NCBI RefSeq assembly: GCF_945952055.1
Contig: NZ_CAMFHB010000043.1
Span: 1-53,432 of the forward strand
Length of the DNA stretch: 53,432 nt
Origin: an uncultured Alsobacter sp.
GTDB lineage: Bacteria; Pseudomonadota; Alphaproteobacteria; Rhizobiales; Beijerinckiaceae
Direction: 5' to 3'
Position 1 is the stretch's first letter. Each line of letters opens with the position of its first letter. Made by a program: the position numbers and the translations under genes. The notes beneath the pieces are model-generated. The model searched no databases. It saw only the letters and a list, made by a program, of their open reading frames with translations, and was not told the origin of the DNA. Positions 41,647-53,432 of the stretch are shown here, in pieces.

Positions 41647-41739
41647 CGCGCGTCGGTGGCACGCACCGTCCGGCGCGGCTTGCACGCGCTCGAAACCGCG
41701 GGCACCCTGCACCGGACGCGAGAATTGCGGGGGCGGGCG

Positions 41740-42387
41740 ATGATCTGCATGCGGTTGCGAGCGGCCTCGGCCGGCCTTGCCCTCGCGCTGGGCGCCCTGG
41801 CCGTGGCCCCGGTCGCGCCGGCGCGGGCCGAAGAACCGCGTTCCATCGGTCTCGTCGACAAGGTCCAGGGCGCGGCTGACGCGGTCTCGGCGGGACGGAT
41901 GCGCGACCTCGCCGGCCAGGATCCCATCTGGTTCGGGGACCGCTTGCGGACCGGCGAGGACTCCCGGCTCGCCGTCCAGCTCGACGACGAGACCAGGCTC
42001 ACGCTGGGCGAGAAGGCGACGCTCACCGTCGACCGCTTCGTCTACAACCCCGAGCGCGGGGCCGGAACGCTGGCCCTGAAGGTCGCCCGCGGCGCCTTCC
42101 TGTTCGTCGGCGGCAAGGTGGAGGCGGCCCAGGGCGCCCGCGTCAGCATCACGACGGCGTCGGCCACGCTGGGGGTGCGGGGAACGACCGTCTGGGGCGG
42201 CCCGCTCGACGGCGGCTTCGGCGTCTTCGTGGCCGAGGGCCGCGTCACGGTCCGCGCACGGCGCGGCACCGTCACCCTCACGCGCGGCCAGGGCACGCTG
42301 ATCGACGGCAACGGCCGCCCGGACGGCGTCACGACATGGGGCCAGCCCCGCATCCAGCGAGCGCTCGCGACGGTCGCGATCCCCTGA
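41740..42387 (+). CDS. FecR-domain exported protein (second copy)
   Basis: This 215-residue protein has a signal peptide (about residues 1-30, ending ARAEE) and a FecR domain: GLVDKVQGAADAV, DPIWFGDRLRTGEDSRLAVQLDDETRLTLGEKATLTVDRFVY, then VSITTASATLGVRGTTVWGG. This is the class of small soluble FecR proteins found beside adhesin and CHASE2 genes, not the Fe-citrate anti-sigma type. The purine-rich GGGGGCGGG precedes the ATG at 41740; an ATG 9 bp later is also possible. It is probably periplasmic. It differs from the first FecR protein (34157-35164) in lacking the C-terminal anchor. Confidence 0.78.
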   Translation: MICMRLRAASAGLALALGALAVAPVAPARAEEPRSIGLVDKVQGAADAVSAGRMRDLAGQDPIWFGDRLRTGEDSRLAVQLDDETRLTLGEKATLTVDRFVYNPERGAGTLALKVARGAFLFVGGKVEAAQGARVSITTASATLGVRGTTVWGGPLDGGFGVFVAEGRVTVRARRGTVTLTRGQGTLIDGNGRPDGVTTWGQPRIQRALATVAIP

Positions 42388-43575: not shown

Positions 43576-43669
43576 GAGCGCCAGGCGGGCGGTGGCCGTT
43601 CGGGCCACTGCTGCGAGCGCCGGCGCGCGACACGATGCGATGAAGCAGATGATGGTTAGGGCGAATACG

Positions 43670-45091
43670 ATGTCGAAGGGATTGAAGACGCGTCGGACAG
43701 GGCTTGTGGCCGCGTTGCGATGCGCTTTGCTCACCACGGTCGCGTTCGCGTCCGCCGGTGGCGTCGCCCAGGCGATGAGCCTGCGCGAAGCCGTGTCCAT
43801 TGCGCTCGATTCCAATCCGCAGATCGGCCAGGCGATCATGAATCGCGAGGCGATCGAGTTCGAGCTGCGCCAGGCGCGCGGTCTCTACCTGCCGCGGCTG
43901 GACCTCGAGAGCTCGGCCGGCGCACGCCGCTACGGCAGCCCGGACCGCCGGCGCCTGGGCACCGACGACAAGGCGCTCAAGCCCGTCGAGGCCGAACTCG
44001 TGGCCACCCAGCGCCTGTTCGACGGCTTCGGCCGAGAGGCCGAGGTCGAGCGCCAAGCCTCCCGCGTCGACGGCGCGTCGTTCCGCGTCATCGAGCGCGC
44101 CGAGTTCATCGCGCTGTCGATCGCGCGTGAATACATCGAGGTGCTGCTGCAGCAGCGCATCCTCTCGGTGGTGAACGAGAACGCCGCCTTCCACCGGCGC
44201 ATCCTGGGCGACATCGACGCGGGCGTCCGGTCCGGCACGCTGACCGATGCCGACAAATACCAGGCCTCCGAGCGCCTGACGGCCGCCATCGCCAAGCAGA
44301 AGCAGGCCGAGGAAGACCTTGCCACCGCCAAGATCCGTTTCTACACCCTCGTCGGCCAGCCGATCGGGGTCGCGGGCGCCCTGCCCGTCCTCGGTGGCAC
44401 GCTGCCGAAGTCGCTGGCCGACGCCATCGGACGGGCCAGGACCAACAATCCGCAGATCGCGGGCGCGGGTGCCGACGTCGATGCCGGTGAAGCCCTCGTG
44501 AAGGCCGCCCGGTCGAAGTACTATCCCGAGCTGTTCCTCGAGGGCCGGGCCCGGACGGGCAACGACGTGGACGGCAATCGCGGCCACACCAACGACATGA
44601 CCGGCCGCGCCGTGCTGCGCTGGAACCTGTATGACGGCGGCATCAAGAACGCCAACGAGCAGGAGCAGATCCGGCGGGCCAGCGAGCTGCGCCTGAGGCT
44701 GCACCAGACCCTGCGCGAGGTCGAGGAAGTGGTCCGCACCTCCTGGGAGCGCAAGTCGCGCCAGGCCGAGCTGTCGGGCCTGCTGAGCCGCCAGTCCGGC
44801 GAGGCCGAACGCGTCGTCTCCGCCTACCAGGATCAGTTCAAGGTGGGCCGCCGCTCGCTCCTCGACGTGCTCGACGCCCAGAACACCCGCGTCAACGCCG
44901 CTCTCCTGACCGAGACCGCGCGCTATGCGGTGGTGCTGGCCGAGTACCGCCTGGCGGCCTCCACCGGGGCACTGGTCAAGACGCTGGGCCTGAAGGCCCC
45001 GCAGCAGGGCGATGCCTATGCGCGGGCCAAGGCCGGCGTGCCGCCGACCCCGGACGCCGAGACCTACTCGCGCTACTCGCCCACGCGCTGA
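43670..45091 (+). CDS. TolC/LapE-type outer membrane channel protein
   Basis: This 473-residue outer membrane efflux protein has an N-terminal signal peptide (ending GGVAQA) and two TolC-type repeats: SLREAVSIALDSNPQIGQA and LADAIGRARTNNPQIAGAG. Each is followed by long helical segments, and the second half has YPELFLEGRARTGND, VLRWNLYDGG and FKVGRRSLLDVLDAQN. It forms the outer membrane exit for the type I system encoded next. Several ATG codons are in frame (43640, 43649, 43652, 43670); 43670 gives the best signal peptide and has AGGG about 9 nt upstream. The exporter gene starts 10 bp after its stop. Confidence 0.88.
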   Translation: MSKGLKTRRTGLVAALRCALLTTVAFASAGGVAQAMSLREAVSIALDSNPQIGQAIMNREAIEFELRQARGLYLPRLDLESSAGARRYGSPDRRRLGTDDKALKPVEAELVATQRLFDGFGREAEVERQASRVDGASFRVIERAEFIALSIAREYIEVLLQQRILSVVNENAAFHRRILGDIDAGVRSGTLTDADKYQASERLTAAIAKQKQAEEDLATAKIRFYTLVGQPIGVAGALPVLGGTLPKSLADAIGRARTNNPQIAGAGADVDAGEALVKAARSKYYPELFLEGRARTGNDVDGNRGHTNDMTGRAVLRWNLYDGGIKNANEQEQIRRASELRLRLHQTLREVEEVVRTSWERKSRQAELSGLLSRQSGEAERVVSAYQDQFKVGRRSLLDVLDAQNTRVNAALLTETARYAVVLAEYRLAASTGALVKTLGLKAPQQGDAYARAKAGVPPTPDAETYSRYSPTR

Positions 45092-45101
45092 CGAGCCGCC
45101 G

Positions 45102-47276
45102 GTGAACGCCGTTCCGCAGACCCCTGCAGCGGCTCCGAGCGGCCCCGGAGCGGGGCATACGGGCGGCGATCCCGGTATCGACCCGCTGCTGGGCTGCCTG
45201 CAGTTCGTGGCCCGGCACTACGAGCGCCCGGCCTCCGAGACCATGCTCACCGCGGGGCTTCCGCTCGACGAAGGCCGCCTGACGCCCGACCTCTTCCGGC
45301 GCGCCGCGGCCCGGATCGGCCTGTCGACGGCGGTGACCACCCGGCCGCTCTCCGCCTATGGAACGGTCGACCTGCCGGCCATCATCGCCACGCGCGGCGG
45401 CGGCTATTTCGTGCTGCTCGCCCACCGTCCGGACGGTTCGACGCGGATCTTCGTGCCGGAGACGGGCGGCATCGCCACGGTCGACTTCAAGGACGTCCAG
45501 ACGGTCTATGGCGGGTCGGGCTTCACCATCCTGCCGCACTACGAGGCCGTGGACCACGATGGCAATGCCGGCGACGGCATCCAGCGCGGCCACTGGTTCT
45601 GGGGCCCGGTTAAGTCCCACCGCGGCAGTTTCGCGGTCGTGGCCCTGGCGGCCCTGCTGATCAACCTGATCGGCCTGGCCGCGCCGCTCTACACGATGAA
45701 CATCTACGACCGCGTCCTCCCCAACAAGGCGGTGACGACGCTGTGGGTGCTCGCCGTCGGCTTCGGCGTGGTCCTGGTCTTCGACTACGTCCTGAAACTC
45801 GCCCGCGCCTCGCTCCTCGACACCATCGGCAAGAAGCTCGACATCCAGCTCTCCGAGTCGATCTTCGAGAAGATCCTCAACACGCCGCTGATGCACCGGC
45901 CCGTCTCGACCGGCGAGTTCGTCAATCGCGTGACGCAGTACGAATACATCCGCGAGTTCTTCACCTCCAACACGCTGTCCGTCTTCATCGACTGCAGCTT
46001 CCTGTTCATCTTCCTGATCGTGATCCACCAGCTGTCGGGCTGGATTGTGCTCATCCCGATCACGGCGATGGTGCTGGTGGTGGGCGCCGGGCTGGTGGGC
46101 CAGCGCCTGATCGGCAAGAAGATGGCCGCGGCCCAGGCGGAGAGCTCGCTGCGCCACGCCATGCTGGTCGAGGCCGTCGGCGCGCTGGAGACGATCAAGG
46201 GCATCCGCGCCGAGGGCGCCCTGCTGCGCCGCTGGGACAACGTGATCCGCACCGGCTCGGTGACGCAGGAGAAGATCAAGACGATCAGCTCCGCCACACT
46301 GTACTTCTCCATCCTCGTCCAGCAGATGGTCACCGTGTGGATCGTGGTGGCGGGGGCCTACCGCTTCGCCGCGGGCGAGATGACCACCGGCGCCATCATC
46401 GCCTCCGTCATGCTCGCCTCGCGGGCCGTGTCGCCTCTCACCTCGGTGGCCACGACGCTCACGCGGGCCCGCCACGCCTTCTCGGCGATGAACACGCTGA
46501 ATGGCCTGATGGCCATGCCGGACGAGCGCGTCTCGCAGCGCAGCTTCGTCAACCGCCCGGTCGACGACGGCGCCGTGCAGATCCGCAACGGCGTCTTCTA
46601 CTATCCCCGCGTCGAGCGCCGGATCCTCGACGGCATCAACCTCGCCATCCGGCCGGGCGAGAAGATCGGCATCATCGGCCGCGTCGGGTCGGGCAAGACC
46701 ACGCTGGGCCGCATCATTGCCGGCCTCTACACGCTGACGGACGGCGAGCTCCTGATCGACGGCGTCGACGTGCGCCAGTACCACCCCCACGAGGTGCGCA
46801 AGGCCGTCACCATCGTCTCGCAGGACACCGACCTGTTCCTGGGCACGATCAAGGAGAACATCCTGATCGCCAGGCCCAGTGCCTCCGACGCCGACGTGGT
46901 GCGGGCCTGCCGGCTGGCGGGCGTCGACGACTTCGTGGCGCAGCACCCGATGGGCTACGAGATGCCGGTCGGCGAGCGCGGCCGCAACCTGTCCACGGGC
47001 CAGCGGCAGGCGGTCGCCATCGCGCGCGCCTTCCTCATCGCGCCGAAGATCCTGTTCCTCGACGAGCCCTCCAGCGCCATGGACCTGGCCACCGAGCGCA
47101 TGTTCCTGGCGCGGCTGCAGGAGAGCATGCCAAAGGAACAGACCCTGCTGATCGCCACGCATCGTTTCAGCATGCTGGCGCTGGTCGACCGCCTGATTGT
47201 CGTCGACAACGGCCGGATCGCCGCCGACGGACCCAAAGACGACGTGCTCGCTGCGCTTCGTCAAACGGCGGGCTGA
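45102..47276 (+). CDS. LapB-type type I secretion ABC exporter (permease-ATPase)
   Basis: This 724-residue protein has an N-terminal C39-like domain that is not a protease (about residues 25-150; starts DPLLGCLQFVARHYERPAS without the catalytic Cys/His set), as in LapB-type adhesin exporters. Six transmembrane helices follow (about 175-450), then the ATPase with Walker A GRVGSGKTT, Q-loop VSQDTDLF, signature LSTGQRQA (LSGGQ variant), Walker B ILFLDEPSSAMD and switch ATHR. It energises export of the giant adhesin. Start GTG at 45102 is 10 bp after the TolC stop; a longer frame inside the TolC gene is rejected. Confidence 0.9.
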   Translation: MNAVPQTPAAAPSGPGAGHTGGDPGIDPLLGCLQFVARHYERPASETMLTAGLPLDEGRLTPDLFRRAAARIGLSTAVTTRPLSAYGTVDLPAIIATRGGGYFVLLAHRPDGSTRIFVPETGGIATVDFKDVQTVYGGSGFTILPHYEAVDHDGNAGDGIQRGHWFWGPVKSHRGSFAVVALAALLINLIGLAAPLYTMNIYDRVLPNKAVTTLWVLAVGFGVVLVFDYVLKLARASLLDTIGKKLDIQLSESIFEKILNTPLMHRPVSTGEFVNRVTQYEYIREFFTSNTLSVFIDCSFLFIFLIVIHQLSGWIVLIPITAMVLVVGAGLVGQRLIGKKMAAAQAESSLRHAMLVEAVGALETIKGIRAEGALLRRWDNVIRTGSVTQEKIKTISSATLYFSILVQQMVTVWIVVAGAYRFAAGEMTTGAIIASVMLASRAVSPLTSVATTLTRARHAFSAMNTLNGLMAMPDERVSQRSFVNRPVDDGAVQIRNGVFYYPRVERRILDGINLAIRPGEKIGIIGRVGSGKTTLGRIIAGLYTLTDGELLIDGVDVRQYHPHEVRKAVTIVSQDTDLFLGTIKENILIARPSASDADVVRACRLAGVDDFVAQHPMGYEMPVGERGRNLSTGQRQAVAIARAFLIAPKILFLDEPSSAMDLATERMFLARLQESMPKEQTLLIATHRFSMLALVDRLIVVDNGRIAADGPKDDVLAALRQTAG

Positions 47277-47379
47277 CCCTCTTTTGCTGCCGTGTCGCCA
47301 CATTCGCCACGCATTAAGCAGGCGTGTGCTATGGTTGTGCCGTCATTAACCTCGCATCCACGGGCCGCAATCCTTCGCC

Positions 47380-49113
47380 ATGCTGCCGATCATGCGTCTG
47401 ACGTTCCTCGCTGCGGCCGCCGCCCTCTGGGCGAGCGCCGGCGCGTGGGCACAGTCCGGCCCGATGATTCTGCCCCAGCCGGGCGGTGCCGCGCCCGAGG
47501 CCGAGGCCGCCCCGGCACGGCCCGCCCCCCGTGCCACGCCACGGAGCAAGCCGAAGCCGAAGCCCGCCGAGGCCGCCACCGAAGCCGCCGCGCCGCAGGA
47601 CAGTGCGCCCGGCAACGAGGCGGCCGAGCCCGCGCAGGCTGCCCCCAAGCCGGCGCCGAAGCCCGTCCGCGCCAAGACTGCCAAGCCCGCGCCGGCCGCG
47701 CCCGCGGCCGGCACGGCGGAGGCGCCCTCCGCCGAGGAGCCTGGCGCTGCCCCGACCGAAGACGCTGCGAAGCCCCCCGCACCGGTGAAGCCGGCCAAGC
47801 CGCCCCGGGCCAAGGCGGCCAAGCCCGCTCCGGCCGCCGCGCCCGTCGCCAAGACGGACGATCCCGCCGGCACGCCGGACCCGGCCGCCGCTGCGGCTGA
47901 CGATGCGGCGAAAGCCGCGGAAGCGCCGAAGCCCGTGGCCAAGCCGCCCCGCGCCAAGGTCGCGAAGCCCGTGCCCGCCGCGCCGCCTGCGGCCGAGACG
48001 CAGGACGCATCGCCCGACAACGGCGCCCAGCCCGGCAACGCCGCCCAGGCGACGGACCCCGCCGCGCCGCCGCCCCCCGCCAAGCCCCCGACCAAGCGCG
48101 CCAAGGCGCCGGCCAAGCCGGCTCAGCCGACGGCCGAGGCGAGCCCCGACGGCCAGACTGCGGTCGCTCCGCCCGGTCCCGACGGCGAGCCCGCGCCGGC
48201 GAAGGCTCCGGCCCGTGGCAAGGCGCAAAAGGGAAAGGCCGTGGCCGGCAAGCCGGTCGCCCCGCCGGAACCGCCGCGCGACCTGCCGCCGCAGCTGCGG
48301 GCCGCCGATCTGCGCGACCCCGACCTGCTGACCGACACAAGGCTCTTGGGGCGTCGCCCGACCATGACGATGCCCCCGGAGACGGGCGATGACGCCGTGC
48401 GGGTGGTGACGCGCTCGATGGGGCGTTCGCCCCGATCGCTCTATCTCGCGGAGGCCTGGTCGCCGCCGGGGATCGCGGTCTACGACGCCCTGCTGCAGTC
48501 GCCCGACAGCAGCGAGGCGGCTCCCGTGGCGCTGAACTCCTTCGAGGCGATCCAGGCGGGCGCCGCGGCAGGCCCCTTCCGCGCCGGGCTGGTGGAGGAG
48601 AACGAGGCCGAGCCGGGGCGGCCCCGGATCGACGCGGGCACGGTCACCTGGCGGTTCCTGCAGCCGGACGGCGGCACCGGTGCCCCGACCGCCCTGTCGG
48701 CGGAGGTCGTGATCGACCGGCCGCGGCTCAAGGTGGTCGTCACCTTCCGCCCGGACCGCACGCCGAACGCGCCCTCGCCGCTGGCGATCGACATCGCCTT
48801 CGTGAACTCCCAGAGCCCGGTGACGCAGATCGGGATCCCGGAGCTTCGCAACCCGGGTATCGAGAGGGGCATTCCGCTCTACGCGACGCTGGCCGGCGCG
48901 GCGACCCCCGGCGAGCCCTATGCGGTGATCCTGTCGGCCAACGACACCGACGGCGACCAGAACATCAAGCTGCTCACCGGACGTCCCTGGATCGACATCC
49001 CCATGCGGACGCAGAACGGGAAGCGCTTGACCCTGGCGTTCGAAAAGGGCACCGCCGTGCGCGAGATGATGCGCAGTGCCTTTCGCGCCTGGCGGCTTCC
49101 CTGGCTGCCATGA
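47380..49113 (+). CDS. Exported Pro/Ala/Lys-rich protein of the T1SS operon, unknown function
   Basis: This 577-residue protein has a signal peptide (MRLTFLAAAAALWASAGAWAQ, from the ATG at 47392; 47380 is also possible). A very long low-complexity region (about residues 30-300) is made of repeating Pro/Ala/Lys units such as KPAKPPRAKAAKPAP. A folded C-terminal domain follows (about 310-577), beta-rich with VVIDRPRLKVVVTFRP and RPWIDIPM. The low-complexity part recalls TonB-like periplasm-spanning segments. It sits between the ABC exporter and HlyD genes, so it may be an accessory of adhesin export. No family recognised. Confidence 0.75.
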   Translation: MLPIMRLTFLAAAAALWASAGAWAQSGPMILPQPGGAAPEAEAAPARPAPRATPRSKPKPKPAEAATEAAAPQDSAPGNEAAEPAQAAPKPAPKPVRAKTAKPAPAAPAAGTAEAPSAEEPGAAPTEDAAKPPAPVKPAKPPRAKAAKPAPAAAPVAKTDDPAGTPDPAAAAADDAAKAAEAPKPVAKPPRAKVAKPVPAAPPAAETQDASPDNGAQPGNAAQATDPAAPPPPAKPPTKRAKAPAKPAQPTAEASPDGQTAVAPPGPDGEPAPAKAPARGKAQKGKAVAGKPVAPPEPPRDLPPQLRAADLRDPDLLTDTRLLGRRPTMTMPPETGDDAVRVVTRSMGRSPRSLYLAEAWSPPGIAVYDALLQSPDSSEAAPVALNSFEAIQAGAAAGPFRAGLVEENEAEPGRPRIDAGTVTWRFLQPDGGTGAPTALSAEVVIDRPRLKVVVTFRPDRTPNAPSPLAIDIAFVNSQSPVTQIGIPELRNPGIERGIPLYATLAGAATPGEPYAVILSANDTDGDQNIKLLTGRPWIDIPMRTQNGKRLTLAFEKGTAVREMMRSAFRAWRLPWLP

Positions 49114-49198
49114 TCCTGCCTGACGCCATCCTGCCCGACGTGACGCCGACGTCCACGCGCCCCACCATCCCCTCTTCGACAGTCCGGACCATCGCCCC

Positions 49199-50530
49199 GT
49201 GAGCATTGCCGACCGCTTGACCGGCCCCAAGTCCAAGAAGCCGGCCGCCCTCGACGACGGCAGCACGACGGCGGCCTCCGTCATCATCCTGTCGGCGGCG
49301 CTGTTCTTCATGTTCCTCCTCGGCTGGGCCTCCTTCGCCGAGGTCGACGAGGTGACGCGCGGCGAGGGCAAGGTGATCCCCTCCAAGAAGACCCAGACGA
49401 TCCAGAGTTCCGAGCCCGGCGTCGTGCAGGAAATCATGGTCCGCCTGGGCCAGCAGGTGCACCAGGGCGACATCCTGGTTCGCCTCGACAGCACGCTGAA
49501 CACGTCCAACCTCGGCGAGGTCGAGGCGAAGTCGCGCACCCTGCAGGCCCAGATCGCCCGGCTCCAGATCGAGAGCGAGGGTCGCGCCGCGGCGGGCTAC
49601 GTCTGTCCGGAAACGCTCCGGTCGCTGGCCCCGGAGGTCTGCGTCAACGAGGCCAACCTGCTGGCCACGCGCTACGACGCGCTGCGCAAGAAGCTGTCGA
49701 CCATGGCCGAGCGCGTGGAGCAGCGGCAGCGCGAGCTGAACGAAGCCAACCAAAACGCCTCCCGCATCGGCGAGAGCCTCGAGCTCGCCGAGAAGGAGCT
49801 CGAGATCATCACCCCGCTCGCCAACCGCAACATCGCGCCCAAGACGGAGCTGCTGCGGGCCCAGCGCGCCGCGGTCGAGCTGCGCGGCCAGCAGGCCGCC
49901 AACAAGGAGACGATCGCCAAGGTGGAGGCCGCCCTGCGCGAAGCCCGCAACGGCACGCAGGAGGTCGACCTGCAGTTCCGCCAGGACGCGCTCGCCGAAC
50001 TCACGAAGGCCTCGGCCGAGCTCTCCGTGATCAACCAGACGGCGAAGGGTGCGCAGGAGCGGCTGCGGCGCACGGACATCCGCTCGCCCGTCGACGGCAT
50101 CGTCAACACGCTCACGGTGAACACCGTCGGCGGTTTCGTGAATGCCGGCGGCCACGTGATGGACATCGTGCCTCTGGAGGACGCCCTCGTCGTGGAGACG
50201 AAGGTGAAGCCCGCCGACATCGCCTTCCTGCGGCAGGGCCAGCCCGCGCTCGTGAAGATCACGGCCTACGACTTCAGCATCTATGGCGGGCTCGAGGCGG
50301 TGGTCGAGCACGTGTCGGCGGACAGCGTGTATGACGAGCAGGCGCGCGAGACCTTCTACATCGTGCAGGTGAAGACCGATCGCTCGTCGCTGCACTACCG
50401 CGGCAAGGACTTTCCGATCATGCCGGGCATGGTCGCGCAGGTGGACATCCTGACCGGCAAGAAGACCGTGCTCGACTACCTGCTGAAGCCGATCATGAAG
50501 GCGCGCCAGGAGTCGCTGCGTGAGCGCTGA
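49199..50530 (+). CDS. LapC-type HlyD-family membrane fusion protein
   Basis: This 443-residue T1SS adaptor has a short cytoplasmic N-terminus and a transmembrane helix (about 26-46). The lipoyl half is VTRGEGKVIPSKKTQTIQSSEPGVV, followed by a coiled-coil hairpin (about 105-300), the second half IRSPVDGIVNTLTVNTVGGFVNAGGHVMDIVP, and a C-terminal beta domain ending GMVAQVDILTGKKTVLDYLLKP. A Cys pair (Cys136, Cys148) sits in the hairpin. It bridges the ABC exporter and TolC protein. Start GTG at 49199. The next gene begins inside its last codons (GTG at 50520), so they are translationally coupled. Confidence 0.9.
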   Translation: MSIADRLTGPKSKKPAALDDGSTTAASVIILSAALFFMFLLGWASFAEVDEVTRGEGKVIPSKKTQTIQSSEPGVVQEIMVRLGQQVHQGDILVRLDSTLNTSNLGEVEAKSRTLQAQIARLQIESEGRAAAGYVCPETLRSLAPEVCVNEANLLATRYDALRKKLSTMAERVEQRQRELNEANQNASRIGESLELAEKELEIITPLANRNIAPKTELLRAQRAAVELRGQQAANKETIAKVEAALREARNGTQEVDLQFRQDALAELTKASAELSVINQTAKGAQERLRRTDIRSPVDGIVNTLTVNTVGGFVNAGGHVMDIVPLEDALVVETKVKPADIAFLRQGQPALVKITAYDFSIYGGLEAVVEHVSADSVYDEQARETFYIVQVKTDRSSLHYRGKDFPIMPGMVAQVDILTGKKTVLDYLLKPIMKARQESLRER

Positions 50531-51149
50531 CGGCAGCACGGCGGATCGCTCCGCCCTGCCGGCGGGCGACGGCGGCCCGGCCATGCGCTTCAGGATCTTC
50601 AAGCGCGGACCGTGGCGCCGGGCGTTCCGGCTGGAGGACGCCTACTGGGAAGTCCTCGAGCAGGCCGCCCAGGAGACGGGCGTGAAGATCGCGGACTACG
50701 TCAAGGCTCTCGTCGAACCGCTCGACGGATCCGACGCCAACCTCTCGTCCCTGCTGCGCGTGCATGCCCTGCAATGGATCGGCGCGCGGGCCGAGAAGCT
50801 CGCCCAGGGCCAGGACGCGCGCGAGATCCTCCATGCCGCCCTGGCGGCGCCCCTGCCCTGCTTCGTGATCAGCGCGAGCCGCGCGCTGGTGAACTTCAAC
50901 GGCGAGTTCAGCGCCTACGTCGTCGGGCGGGCCCAGGCCGCGAGCGAGGACGACGTGTCGAAGGCGCGCCTCTCGCTGGACGTTCCGGTGGACAAGCTGA
51001 TCGAGCTGCTCGCCGCGCAGCCGGGCCGGGCGGTGCTCTGCGGCTTCACCATCCGGACCTCGATGGCCATCGCCACCGGCCGGGCGAAGGTCACCTTGGC
51101 GCAGCCGTCCCGCCGGGACCTTGTGGTCGGCTACATCCTGCCGGGCTGA
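50520..51149 (+). CDS. Ribbon-helix-helix (RHH_4-like) and PAS-like protein coupled to lapC
   Basis: This 209-residue protein has two parts. Residues about 33-88 (RRAFRLEDAYWEVLEQAAQETG, NLSSLLRVHAL) match the layout of RHH_4-type DNA-binding domains: a basic strand, then helices with a conserved Trp and NxSSxLR. The remainder (about 108-205; PCFVISASRALVNFNGEFSAYVV) looks like a PAS-type sensor domain. Start GTG at 50520 overlaps the HlyD stop by 11 nt. A DNA-binding regulator fused to a sensor and placed inside an adhesin-export operon is unexpected; it may control the adhesin or the operon itself. Assigned by eye. Confidence 0.62.
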   Translation: MSADGSTADRSALPAGDGGPAMRFRIFKRGPWRRAFRLEDAYWEVLEQAAQETGVKIADYVKALVEPLDGSDANLSSLLRVHALQWIGARAEKLAQGQDAREILHAALAAPLPCFVISASRALVNFNGEFSAYVVGRAQAASEDDVSKARLSLDVPVDKLIELLAAQPGRAVLCGFTIRTSMAIATGRAKVTLAQPSRRDLVVGYILPG

Positions 51150-51190
51150 GACGTCGCGCGCCGGACTTCAGAGCTCGTGACTCTTTCTCT

Positions 51191-51332
51191 CAACCGCCCC
51201 CCAAGCCCCTCATCCTGAGCCACGGCCGCAGGGCCGTGAGTCGAAGGACGCACAAAAGTGCCGCTGAAGGCAATCTGCGTCCTTCGACTCGGCCGCTTCG
51301 CGGCCGGCTCAGGATGAGGGAGATGGGGGCGG
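51191..51332. repeat. Dispersed palindromic repeat family B, copy 2
   Basis: This is the inverted counterpart of 12951-13087: CTCATCCTGAGCC / GGCTCAGGATGAG outer arms, GTCGAAGGACGCA / TGCGTCCTTCGAC inner arms, and the GGGAGATGGGGGC flank. It fills the gap between the convergent regulator and LapG-like genes and may terminate both. Confidence 0.85.
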
Positions 51333-51350
51333 GGACAGAGTCACACGCTC

Positions 51351-52268
51351 TCAGTTCAGGCTGGGCCGCAGCGCGACCGGGCGGGTCTCGGCGCCGGCGG
51401 ACACGGAGGCGGGGCGCCGCACGCCGTGCACCCAGGCGCCCTGGGTGCCGACGGTGTAGAGCGGCATGTAGCCGGTCACCGCCGTGTCCGGCCGGACGTC
51501 GAGTGCCTGGTTGTCGAGCACCCAGGACACGCCGCCGACGCGGACGACGAGAATGGCGTGGCCGATTCCCTTGCGAAGGTCCTTCACCACGGCGATGCGC
51601 ATCAGGTCGCCTGAAACGCCCATGGCGCGCAGCATGCCGAACTTGGCGATGGCGAAGTCCTCGCAATCGCCGGCTCCCTTCGACGCGGCTTCGCCGGGCG
51701 ACGCCCAGTAGTCGCTCACGCCCCAGACCTCCTCGTCGGACCGGAACGCCAGGGAGCGGTTCACGGCGGCGTTGACGTCGCGCAGGAGTTCCAGCGAGAG
51801 GCCGGCGGCATGCGCGCCCTTCACCGCCTCGTACGCCTTGTGCAGGGGCGCGCCGCAGGCCTGGCCGGACGTGCAGGCCTGGAAATAGCGGGCGGGGTCG
51901 TCGGCGAGGATGGCGTTCCACCGTGCCGAGGCGACCGTGGTGCGGACGGGCAGTTCCACGGAGCCGAAGAGCCCCTCCCCGGTCAGGCCGGGCGCCCGCT
52001 CGAGACCGGGGGACGGCAACGCTCCCGTGATGTCGTCGCCGGGCAGGCTGCCGCGCAACTCCGGCGGCGCCGCCGCCTTGCGGACGGACGGGTTCGCGGG
52101 GACCTGCAGCGGCCGGCGCGCCTTGGTCGGCGCGGCGCCGGGAACGATGGAAGGGCGCAGGAGAGTATCGGCCCGCGTGTGCTCGACATCCCCGAGCGAC
52201 ACGACGCAAGCGACCGCAACGACGAGGCAGGCACCGAGACGTCTTGCTGATCCTTGTCTCGAAACCAC
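51351..52268 (-). CDS. lapG: LapG-like periplasmic cysteine protease (BTLCP family)
   Basis: This 305-residue exported transglutaminase-like cysteine protease has a signal peptide near residues 1-34 and a variable Pro-rich region to about 100. The catalytic domain has Cys202 in GDCEDFAIAKFGMLRAMG, His237 in GHAILVV and Asp252 in WVLDNQ, the C-H-D triad of LapG. LapG releases LapA-type adhesins by cutting after a di-alanine site in their N-terminal retention region. It is divergent from the adhesin gene, as expected for a functional pair. Start GTG at 52268 has no strong ribosome binding site. The inner membrane partner LapD is not in the window. Confidence 0.88.
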   Translation of the reverse strand: MVSRQGSARRLGACLVVAVACVVSLGDVEHTRADTLLRPSIVPGAAPTKARRPLQVPANPSVRKAAAPPELRGSLPGDDITGALPSPGLERAPGLTGEGLFGSVELPVRTTVASARWNAILADDPARYFQACTSGQACGAPLHKAYEAVKGAHAAGLSLELLRDVNAAVNRSLAFRSDEEVWGVSDYWASPGEAASKGAGDCEDFAIAKFGMLRAMGVSGDLMRIAVVKDLRKGIGHAILVVRVGGVSWVLDNQALDVRPDTAVTGYMPLYTVGTQGAWVHGVRRPASVSAGAETRPVALRPSLN

Positions 52269-52359
52269 TGCTGCCGATCCGCACTGCTGACGGCGGCAAG
52301 ATTTGCCTACATCCCCTTGTGACCGCGTGAAGGAAGGCAGTGACTCCGCGGTTGTTGGA

Positions 52360-52379
52360 TTGCCGAAAATTTAAGGCAA
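52360..52379. promoter_or_regulatory. 20-bp dyad in lapG-adhesin intergenic region
   Basis: TTGCCGAAAATTTAAGGCAA pairs at 8 of 10 positions (TTGCC-N2-AAATTT-N2-GGCAA). It is a strong candidate operator, 92 bp upstream of the LapG-like start and about 250 bp upstream of the adhesin start. Confidence 0.45.
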
Positions 52380-52451
52380 ACATCCACTCAACCCTGAGTG
52401 CGCCGTTGACGGGCGATTCAGCCGCTGGCGCGATCCGGAGACCCAAAGAGA

Positions 52452-52465
52452 TATATCCGGATATA
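52452..52465. promoter_or_regulatory. Perfect palindrome TATATCC/GGATATA upstream of the adhesin gene
   Basis: TATATCCGGATATA is an exact 14-bp palindrome, 161 bp before the adhesin ATG. It is unusual in such GC-rich DNA and is a likely protein-binding site. Confidence 0.45.
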
Positions 52466-52626
52466 GCTCACCATTAACCCTGAAGGGAGAATGGGAGGTA
52501 GAGGCATATCCCAGTATAAATTGCACGTTACGCAACCATTGCGAGCACACGTGGAAAGGGTAGTTATCATTTGAAGCAAATTGAGCTCGCCTTTTCGCCT
52601 ACGCCCGCCTGATCGAGGAGTATCCC

Positions 52627-53432
52627 ATGCGCATCGAGGCCCCCGGCGCCGCTGGTCTTGGTCCTGTCGCCCCCGCGGAAGACGCACGGCCGCTGATGGT
52701 CCGCGTCGCCCAAGCCGCGACGCCGGGCACCACGACGCCCGGCACCGCCACGGATGCGTTCCCCCTCCCCGCTCCCGACAAGATCGTGAAGTTGCAGCCG
52801 AGCCCGCTGGGTGGCGGCATCGAGGCGACCGCCTACCGCCTGCCGGAGGGTGCCACCTTCGACACGGTGAAGCTGGTCACCATCGACGGCAAGCAGGTGC
52901 TGGCCCTCGTCCAGGCGGACGGTTCGATCATCGTCCTGGAAGGCGTCGGCCCCGCATCGGGCTCCGCCGTGCCGGGAGCGGCCGAAGAGGTCGCCCTTCC
53001 CAACCTCCTGATCGGCAACGTCGAAGTGCCGCGCGAAGCCCTCGCGGCCGCATTCCAGGCCAACGGCATCCAGCCGGCCGCCGGCGGCGACCAGATCGTC
53101 AGCTCGGGCAACAACTTCAACGATCCGGTGCCGGACATCGGCCCCGGCGGCGCCTTCGGGCCCCTTCTGCCGCCGACCGAGCTGGCCCAGGAGCGCCTGG
53201 AACCGGTCGACTTCGGTGGCGATCTCGGCAACCGCAACGGCGCCAACCTGTTCTCGATCGCCGGGTCCGGCTCGCTGACGGGCACGAGCGCTCTGGCGCC
53301 CAGCTTCATCTCGGGCACCTTCACGGGCTTCCCGGGCGGCGGCGGCGCGGGAGGCGGCGTAGGCGGCGGTGGCAGCACCGAGCCGGGCGGCGGCGGGACC
53401 GGCGGCGGCGGGACCGGCGGTGGCGGCACGGG
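52627..53432 (+). CDS. N-terminus of a giant LapA/BapA-like type I secreted adhesin (runs off the right edge)
   Basis: The first 268 residues are visible. No Sec signal is present, as expected for a type I substrate, whose export signal is C-terminal. The segment VKLVTIDGKQVLALVQADGSIIVLEG (78-105), LLIGNVEVPREALAAAFQANGI (127-148) and later LLPPTELA (180-187) is the N-terminal layout seen in large alphaproteobacterial adhesins. PAAG (150-153) fits a LapG cleavage site. Then comes a Gly-rich hinge with GGGGT repeats. GAGGAG lies 7 nt before the ATG. The remaining repeats and C-terminus lie outside the window, so length and RTX content are unknown. Confidence 0.78.
   Translation, partial: MRIEAPGAAGLGPVAPAEDARPLMVRVAQAATPGTTTPGTATDAFPLPAPDKIVKLQPSPLGGGIEATAYRLPEGATFDTVKLVTIDGKQVLALVQADGSIIVLEGVGPASGSAVPGAAEEVALPNLLIGNVEVPREALAAAFQANGIQPAAGGDQIVSSGNNFNDPVPDIGPGGAFGPLLPPTELAQERLEPVDFGGDLGNRNGANLFSIAGSGSLTGTSALAPSFISGTFTGFPGGGGAGGGVGGGGSTEPGGGGTGGGGTGGGGT
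53074..53085 (+). other. Codons of the candidate LapG cleavage motif PAAG in the adhesin
   Basis: Residues 150-153 read Pro-Ala-Ala-Gly, matching the (T/A/P)-A-A-G type di-alanine sites cut by LapG in N-terminal retention regions. It follows a predicted folded segment (residues 78-148) that would act as the retention plug, and a LapG-like gene is adjacent. Confidence 0.5.
53386..53430 (+). repeat. Three 15-bp tandem repeats encoding GGGGT in the adhesin
   Basis: Units at 53386-53400, 53401-53415 and 53416-53430 each encode Gly-Gly-Gly-Gly-Thr; the first two are identical in DNA. They form a flexible hinge after the adhesin N-terminal region. The array may continue beyond the window edge. Confidence 0.85.

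Follow-up and report, generated by a model that had tools for sequence, protein, structure and literature searches.

The window described here, a stretch of 53,432 nucleotides that constitutes one whole contig (NZ_CAMFHB010000043.1, C43) of the genome assembly of an uncultured Alsobacter sp. (GCF_945952055.1, G000; 6.62 Mb in 106 contigs), ends in a locus which probably makes, exports and can cut loose a giant surface adhesin. The reading that we favour, and which on balance we hold to be likely, is that of a LapA-type two-step adhesin locus without LapD, equipped with a dedicated transcription switch in the form of a protein with ribbon-helix-helix (RHH) and PAS domains, termed RHH-PAS here, and a pair of palindromes on which this protein would act. 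The gene content and order recur in related bacteria, adhesin and RHH-PAS occur together, and the paired element precedes adhesin genes that are linked as well as unlinked to the RHH-PAS gene. From these patterns it may be proposed that RHH-PAS binds the paired sites and controls transcription of the adhesin gene, and perhaps also that of lapG, which encodes the candidate releasing protease.

A conserved RHH-PAS partner of the adhesin

The RHH-PAS gene (50520..51149, + strand, with a GTG start) overlaps by 11 bp the preceding HlyD-type adaptor gene and encodes a protein of 209 residues, a proposed adhesin regulator. By prediction, this protein consists of a ribbon-helix-helix DNA-binding domain, recognised by PF13467 (RHH_4) at 40 bits against a cut-off of 25 and matched in 32 of 32 RHH-PAS members, plus a PAS fold in the C-terminal half, for which TraJ of F-like plasmids is the best structural match. 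An earlier note, made by a model from the sequence of the window, had taken this gene for one of two extra genes inserted into the locus; it is, in fact, a conserved partner of the adhesin export system. Using a three-member profile, RHH_4 domains were found in 340 of 397 genomes of the order Hyphomicrobiales, and, as judged from the listed query ranges, the matches extend through the PAS part in at least 31 of the 397, which are regarded as carrying full-length copies. The 31 neighbourhoods examined are those of 29 of these 31 genomes together with L038, from a genome of the same genus, and L039. An export gene, at least one, lies beside RHH-PAS in all 31, and an adhesin with the same N-terminal module was detected by profile search in 26. 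Across these neighbourhoods and a further set of 80 loci from named genomes, RHH-PAS is the sole recognised DNA-binding protein kept in the cluster. The named loci (L110-L189) were retrieved through the RHH-PAS gene and are the best 80 of 143 relatives, mostly from Mesorhizobium, for instance L183 of M. ciceri WSM1271, but also from Aminobacter and Hongsoonwoonella.

The converse search led to the same association. A profile of the adhesin module matched 22 of 312 genomes, 20 of which carry RHH-PAS, the two without a full-length copy being G199 (a weak match) and G216; taking 21 RHH-PAS genomes among the 312, as read from handle numbers, the Fisher test gives 2.9e-28. Outside the order, RHH-PAS-like genes are located directly upstream of an open reading frame (ORF) of more than 3000 residues with a different N-terminus in three loci (L225, L227 and L228), and no type I secretion system (T1SS) genes were recognised near them.

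A paired palindrome before linked and unlinked adhesin genes

Between lapG and the adhesin gene, the window holds two copies of a short palindrome, TATATCCGGATATA at 52452..52465 and CATATCCCAGTATA at 52505..52518, the second 53 bp from the first, which we propose to form a paired operator. In adhesin promoters the palindrome has the form YATA-N6-TATR, usually in two copies and most often 53 bp apart. On scanning 397 whole genomes, the pair was found in 25; 18 of these belong to the 31 RHH-PAS genomes and 7 to the remaining 366, five of the seven coming from one family of small genomes (f4). Five pairs lie away from the RHH-PAS cluster: G233 has three of them, G185 and G359 have a single one each, and the distance is 22 kb in G359 and larger in the other two genomes. 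The prediction that these unlinked pairs precede adhesins was recorded before the respective stretches were retrieved, and each of the five turned out to lie 85-99 bp ahead of an ORF that encodes the same adhesin module and an AAG site. Thus every one of the 20 pairs in RHH-PAS genomes (15 linked and 5 unlinked) precedes an adhesin. No adhesin was found at the pair in G406 and G128, the two genomes without RHH-PAS that were examined in this respect, the six pairs of the f4 genomes being left out. One of the unlinked adhesins of G233 has a second, divergent RHH-PAS-like ORF (L256:14769-15434, 47 bits) just past its paired element.

The palindrome was noticed, as the dyad TATA-N6-TATA, among 7- and 8-mer counts of the promoter regions, which were dominated by A/T words; a free palindrome search over 16 promoter regions stayed mostly inside the range of shuffled sequences. 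The exact dyad occurs in 13 of 28 non-redundant lapG/adhesin intergenic regions (0.6 expected), and across 74 named loci 47 sites fall in 24.4 kb of intergenic sequence as against one in the remaining 1.19 Mb. It is rare, with three sites in the genome of the window, one of them at the present locus. G363 and G278 have no exact site at the adhesin and bear theirs elsewhere, and therefore the wider form YATA-N6-TATR was adopted. Pairs of this form are present in 20 of the 28 regions (200 shuffles: mean 0.005, maximum 1), 70 such pairs lie inside lapG/adhesin regions and none in 1.294 Mb outside, and none was seen in 22 tolC upstream regions. At least one perfect copy stands before 23 of 27 adhesins, compared with three copies in the other 434 kb. 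All these enrichment counts were obtained on the loci from which the palindrome was found and refined, the independent evidence being the whole-genome scan and the unlinked adhesins.

It might be argued that such a paired element is not bound by protein and reflects the structure of AT-rich leader DNA or a promoter feature in it, as the regions are AT-rich and have some A/T 7- and 8-mers in common. We regard this as very improbable: enrichment of exact TATA half-sites is confined to the 6-bp spacing (13 of 28 regions, against 0-3 at spacings of 2-5 and 7-11 bp), the distance between copies is fixed, near 53 bp or, in L101 and L109, 83 bp, both close to an integral number of helical turns, and almost no pairs arise in shuffled sequences of equal composition.

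A more substantial alternative, though still an unlikely one in our estimate, is that a transcription factor other than RHH-PAS binds the paired palindrome, RHH-PAS itself having other targets or not binding DNA. The adhesin and RHH-PAS co-occur so tightly (20 of 22 adhesin genomes) that the element would follow the distribution of RHH-PAS irrespective of its actual binder, which could be any factor acting at these promoters. TTAACC or TTTACC, which we take to be CtrA-like (half) sites, stand in several spacers between the palindromes, for example at 52466-52504 of the window; a CtrA-like TTAACC element was tried as a candidate and lacked clear enrichment, being present in 11 of 28 regions when shuffles gave 6.1 on average and 12 at most. 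RHH-PAS is nevertheless favoured as the binder because it is the one recognised DNA-binding protein retained in the cluster, because G216, the one readable adhesin upstream region from a genome without full-length RHH-PAS, has no copy of the palindrome in the 373 bp readable, and because a different palindrome is shared by L094 and L100, where the RHH-PAS protein is more divergent. The twofold symmetry of the element also fits RHH-PAS, since an RHH dimer is expected on a short palindrome.

Export genes and layout of the locus

The earlier note had described a near-complete locus for LapA-type adhesin export and release, and ORF analysis together with family searches confirmed each of the components it listed: TolC-, LapB (LssB)- and LapC/HlyD-like genes, a protease of the bacterial transglutaminase-like cysteine proteinase (BTLCP) family and an adhesin N-terminus with a PAAG site. 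The TolC/LapE-like outer-membrane channel gene (43667..45091, + strand) lies in a frame open from 43592, its start codon being uncertain; a domain search gave PF02321 at 134.3 bits (cut-off 22), and TIGR01844 scored 222.8 bits, slightly below its cut-off of 225.15. It is followed on the same strand by the gene of a LapB/LssB-type ATP-binding cassette (ABC) exporter with an N-terminal C39-like domain (45012..47276; TIGR03375 of LssB type at 801.9 bits, cut-off 693.1; also PF00005, PF00664 and PF03412) and, beyond a gene discussed below, by that of the LapC/HlyD-type periplasmic adaptor (49199..50530, + strand; TIGR01843 at 401.4 bits, cut-off 208.65). Upstream of the cluster, a FecR-domain protein (41656-42387) gives a weak match with the LapA retention model, at 26.9 bits against a cut-off of 50.

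A layout unlike that of the Pseudomonas lap cluster had also been pointed out; it is the usual arrangement in relatives, as the order TolC, ABC, HlyD, RHH-PAS, reversed lapG and adhesin is found exactly in 44 of the 80 named loci, with the adhesin detected by single-sequence search. ABC and HlyD genes are present in 79 of these loci and LapG in 78.

The other gene previously described as inserted, which encodes a protein of 577 residues (47380..49113, + strand), deserves that description. No relative has it between ABC and HlyD in the neighbourhoods and named loci compared, and it is taken as a local insertion because the intergenic gap is at most 74 bp in 78 ABC-HlyD gene pairs of the named loci. 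The protein has no match in Pfam or NCBIfam and is built of a signal-peptide-like start, a Pro/Ala/Lys-rich linker and a C-terminal domain paralogous to a domain of a widespread Hyphomicrobiales protein. This domain is present in 245 of the 397 genomes, with a second copy in the genome of the window (G000:C80:12053-12664). The source protein is encoded beside a purA-like ORF, and a copy of the domain has entered the operon for adhesin export.

The adhesin N-terminus and the LapG-like protease

The adhesin gene (52627..53432, + strand) is open up to the contig end. Its N-terminus is homologous to the module which starts large cadherin/immunoglobulin (Ig)-repeat proteins of relatives; these adhesins are large, with cadherin/Ig repeats in all three proteins scanned and RTX repeats in two, the third being cut by the end of the retrieved stretch. 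No open frame continuing the gene starts at the edges of C75 or C79, the contigs chosen for this check from 90 RTX matches in the genome; C2, C10, C18 and C34, which also bear RTX matches, were outside it. Very large RTX-repeat frames are found elsewhere in the genome, at G000:C34:46249-62430 (5977 residues) and G000:C10:43058-53414 (3391 residues), and a BTLCP gene lies about 23 kb from the latter.

In an AlphaFold2 model of moderate confidence (predicted local distance difference test about 80 over most of residues 50-145, 59.8 overall), the adhesin N-terminus forms a small beta domain (residues 50-133) and a helix (136-145), directly behind which PAAG, read from the sequence (53074..53085) as the candidate LapG cleavage site, lies in a disordered stretch. 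Residues 50-145 (52774..53061, + strand) are thus proposed as the retention, or plug, module. This agrees with the layout of beta domain, helix and cleavage site and with the consensus [T/A/P]AAG given for LapG sites in the available part of PMC13090378. Neither the window adhesin nor any of 14 members scanned is matched by NF033682, the LapA retention model; three of the 14 weakly match the BapA prefix-like model NF033677 (best E 0.0037).

The LapG-like gene (51351..52268, - strand) is divergent from the adhesin gene and its product has a signal-peptide-like start. PF06035, the family set beforehand as the test of this assignment, matches at 79.4 bits (cut-off 27), and the Cys-His-Asp triad reported earlier is intact, with Cys202, His237 and Asp252 identical in all three sequences aligned. 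Of the four BTLCPs encoded in the genome, the window protease comes nearest to LapG, as the others reach 36, 26 and 18 bits against the LapG equivalog NF045674.

That LapD is missing, as the earlier note had it, is borne out to the extent that PF16448 (LapD_MoxY_N) has no match in the genome of the window at E 1, in a search without a LapD-bearing genome as positive control; among 32 RHH-PAS genomes there is one borderline match (G363, 26.9 bits). LapD-like genes, mentioned for some rhizobial clusters in the available part of PMC7730722, were, unlike there, not found in the present loci by the PF16448 search. A further alternative is an ordinary Lap-type locus in which RHH-PAS is a passenger, LapG being controlled by a LapD substitute that lies elsewhere in the genome and has escaped recognition. 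PF16448 was the only model used, so that a divergent receptor may have been missed, and in the available part of PMC13090378 the Desulfovibrio protein DvhD carries the LapD function by another architecture, consisting of a periplasmic domain, PAS and HD-GYP. We nevertheless consider this explanation improbable, as a passenger would not stay with the adhesin across families, nor would it account for the paired site; this objection concerns the passenger part only, since one and the same genome may contain a transcription regulator as well as a LapD substitute.

Proposed mechanism and its weighing

In the favoured reading, that of a two-step locus with an RHH-PAS switch, the TolC/LapB/LapC trio would export the giant adhesin, whose N-terminal beta-plus-helix module would stay behind and plug the outer-membrane channel until the periplasmic protease LapG cuts at PAAG and releases it. 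RHH-PAS, the product of the last gene of the export operon, would bind as RHH dimers to the two YATA-N6-TATR sites, which, lying five helical turns apart, would be on one side of the helix and could allow cooperative binding or looping. Its PAS domain may make binding responsive to a signal, such that transcription of the adhesin gene, and possibly of the divergent lapG, would be set by the sensed condition. Whether by repression or by activation, such control, like signal sensing by PAS and the cutting of the window adhesin by LapG, is proposed here from sequence features.

Several observations weigh against this reading, in addition to the origin of the enrichment counts and the tight co-occurrence already mentioned. 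An exact pair is lacking in 13 of the 31 RHH-PAS genomes and a perfect copy in 4 of 27 promoters (L081, L094, L100 and L103), and a reversed-pattern control gave one match each in 11 of the 397 genomes. At a threshold of E 0.001, a Foldseek search with the RHH-PAS model (predicted template modelling score 0.54) returned nothing. Of 14 RHH-PAS loci examined outside the order, only 3 have recognisable T1SS genes in the vicinity, and a large ORF adjoins five more. As regards release, the window protease scores 105.9 bits against NF045674, below the cut-off of 320, and 8 of the 31 examined loci have no LapG nearby, as compared with 23 that do. Moreover, the expected AAG site is VAFG in 57 of 64 parsed adhesins of the named loci, mostly from Mesorhizobium, the remaining sites being five VAAG, one VAYG and one IAFG (5 of 69 adhesins were unparsed).

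We also put forward, tentatively and with more doubt than confidence, a wider proposal: giant LapG-type adhesins of Hyphomicrobiales may be served by a dedicated circuit in which RHH-PAS proteins and paired operators link a signal to the adhesin. It would act in trans on every such adhesin of a genome, as on the three unlinked ones of G233, and would replace LapD and cyclic di-GMP (c-di-GMP) as the local input deciding on attachment, control being exerted on transcription and not on proteolysis.

Significance and relation to known systems

A c-di-GMP receptor is involved in every published example of LapG-type adhesin control that we came across, and the co-inheritance of RHH-PAS and the paired site suggests how stickiness could be switched without LapD. 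A precise operator that can be recognised genome-wide provides a sequence handle for all adhesins of one regulon and can be tested in ordinary Mesorhizobium strains; adhesin control bears on root and surface attachment of soil bacteria. Loci of the VAFG type (L110-L189) keep an intact-looking LapG gene adjoining the adhesin, and the PAAG pair of the window against the large VAFG clade offers a natural test of protease specificity. We found no report of the RHH-PAS protein or the paired element in the open-access literature, most subscription journals being outside the scope of the search; the Lap-type locus itself is of a known kind, and the regulator and the paired operator appear to be new.

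With the Lap system of Pseudomonas fluorescens (LapA, LapEBC, LapG and LapD) the locus shares the TolC/LssB-type ABC/HlyD trio, the BTLCP protease and, by prediction, the adhesin beta-plus-helix module followed by an AAG site. It differs in having no LapD domain detectable by PF16448, an adhesin module unmatched by NF033682, a divergent lapG placed between the export genes and the adhesin, and the added RHH-PAS gene and paired palindromes. AmrZ of Pseudomonas aeruginosa is likewise an RHH regulator of biofilm traits, but it is global and is not known to have a PAS domain, whereas RHH-PAS accompanies one type of adhesin as its partner. Like RHH-PAS, TraJ of F-like plasmids is a transcription regulator with a PAS fold, but its DNA-binding part is not known to be of the RHH type and its function is unrelated.

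Clusters of adhesin, T1SS and BTLCP genes are described in Bradyrhizobium and some Mesorhizobium, with DDxP/RTX adhesins for which two-step secretion is proposed (Di Nocera and De Gregorio 2020, PMC7730722); the present locus is of the same cluster type, and in the available part of that paper we found no mention of RHH, PAS, a regulator or an operator. The Dvh system of Desulfovibrio (DvhG, DvhD and DvhA), as far as the available part of PMC13090378 describes it, is alike in its LapG-type protease, in an adhesin with a beta retention domain, a helix and a cleavage site, and in a PAS-containing control protein other than LapD. DvhD, however, is a membrane-located receptor for c-di-GMP that contains PAS and HD-GYP domains, whereas RHH-PAS has neither a membrane nor a c-di-GMP domain and resembles a DNA-binding regulator.
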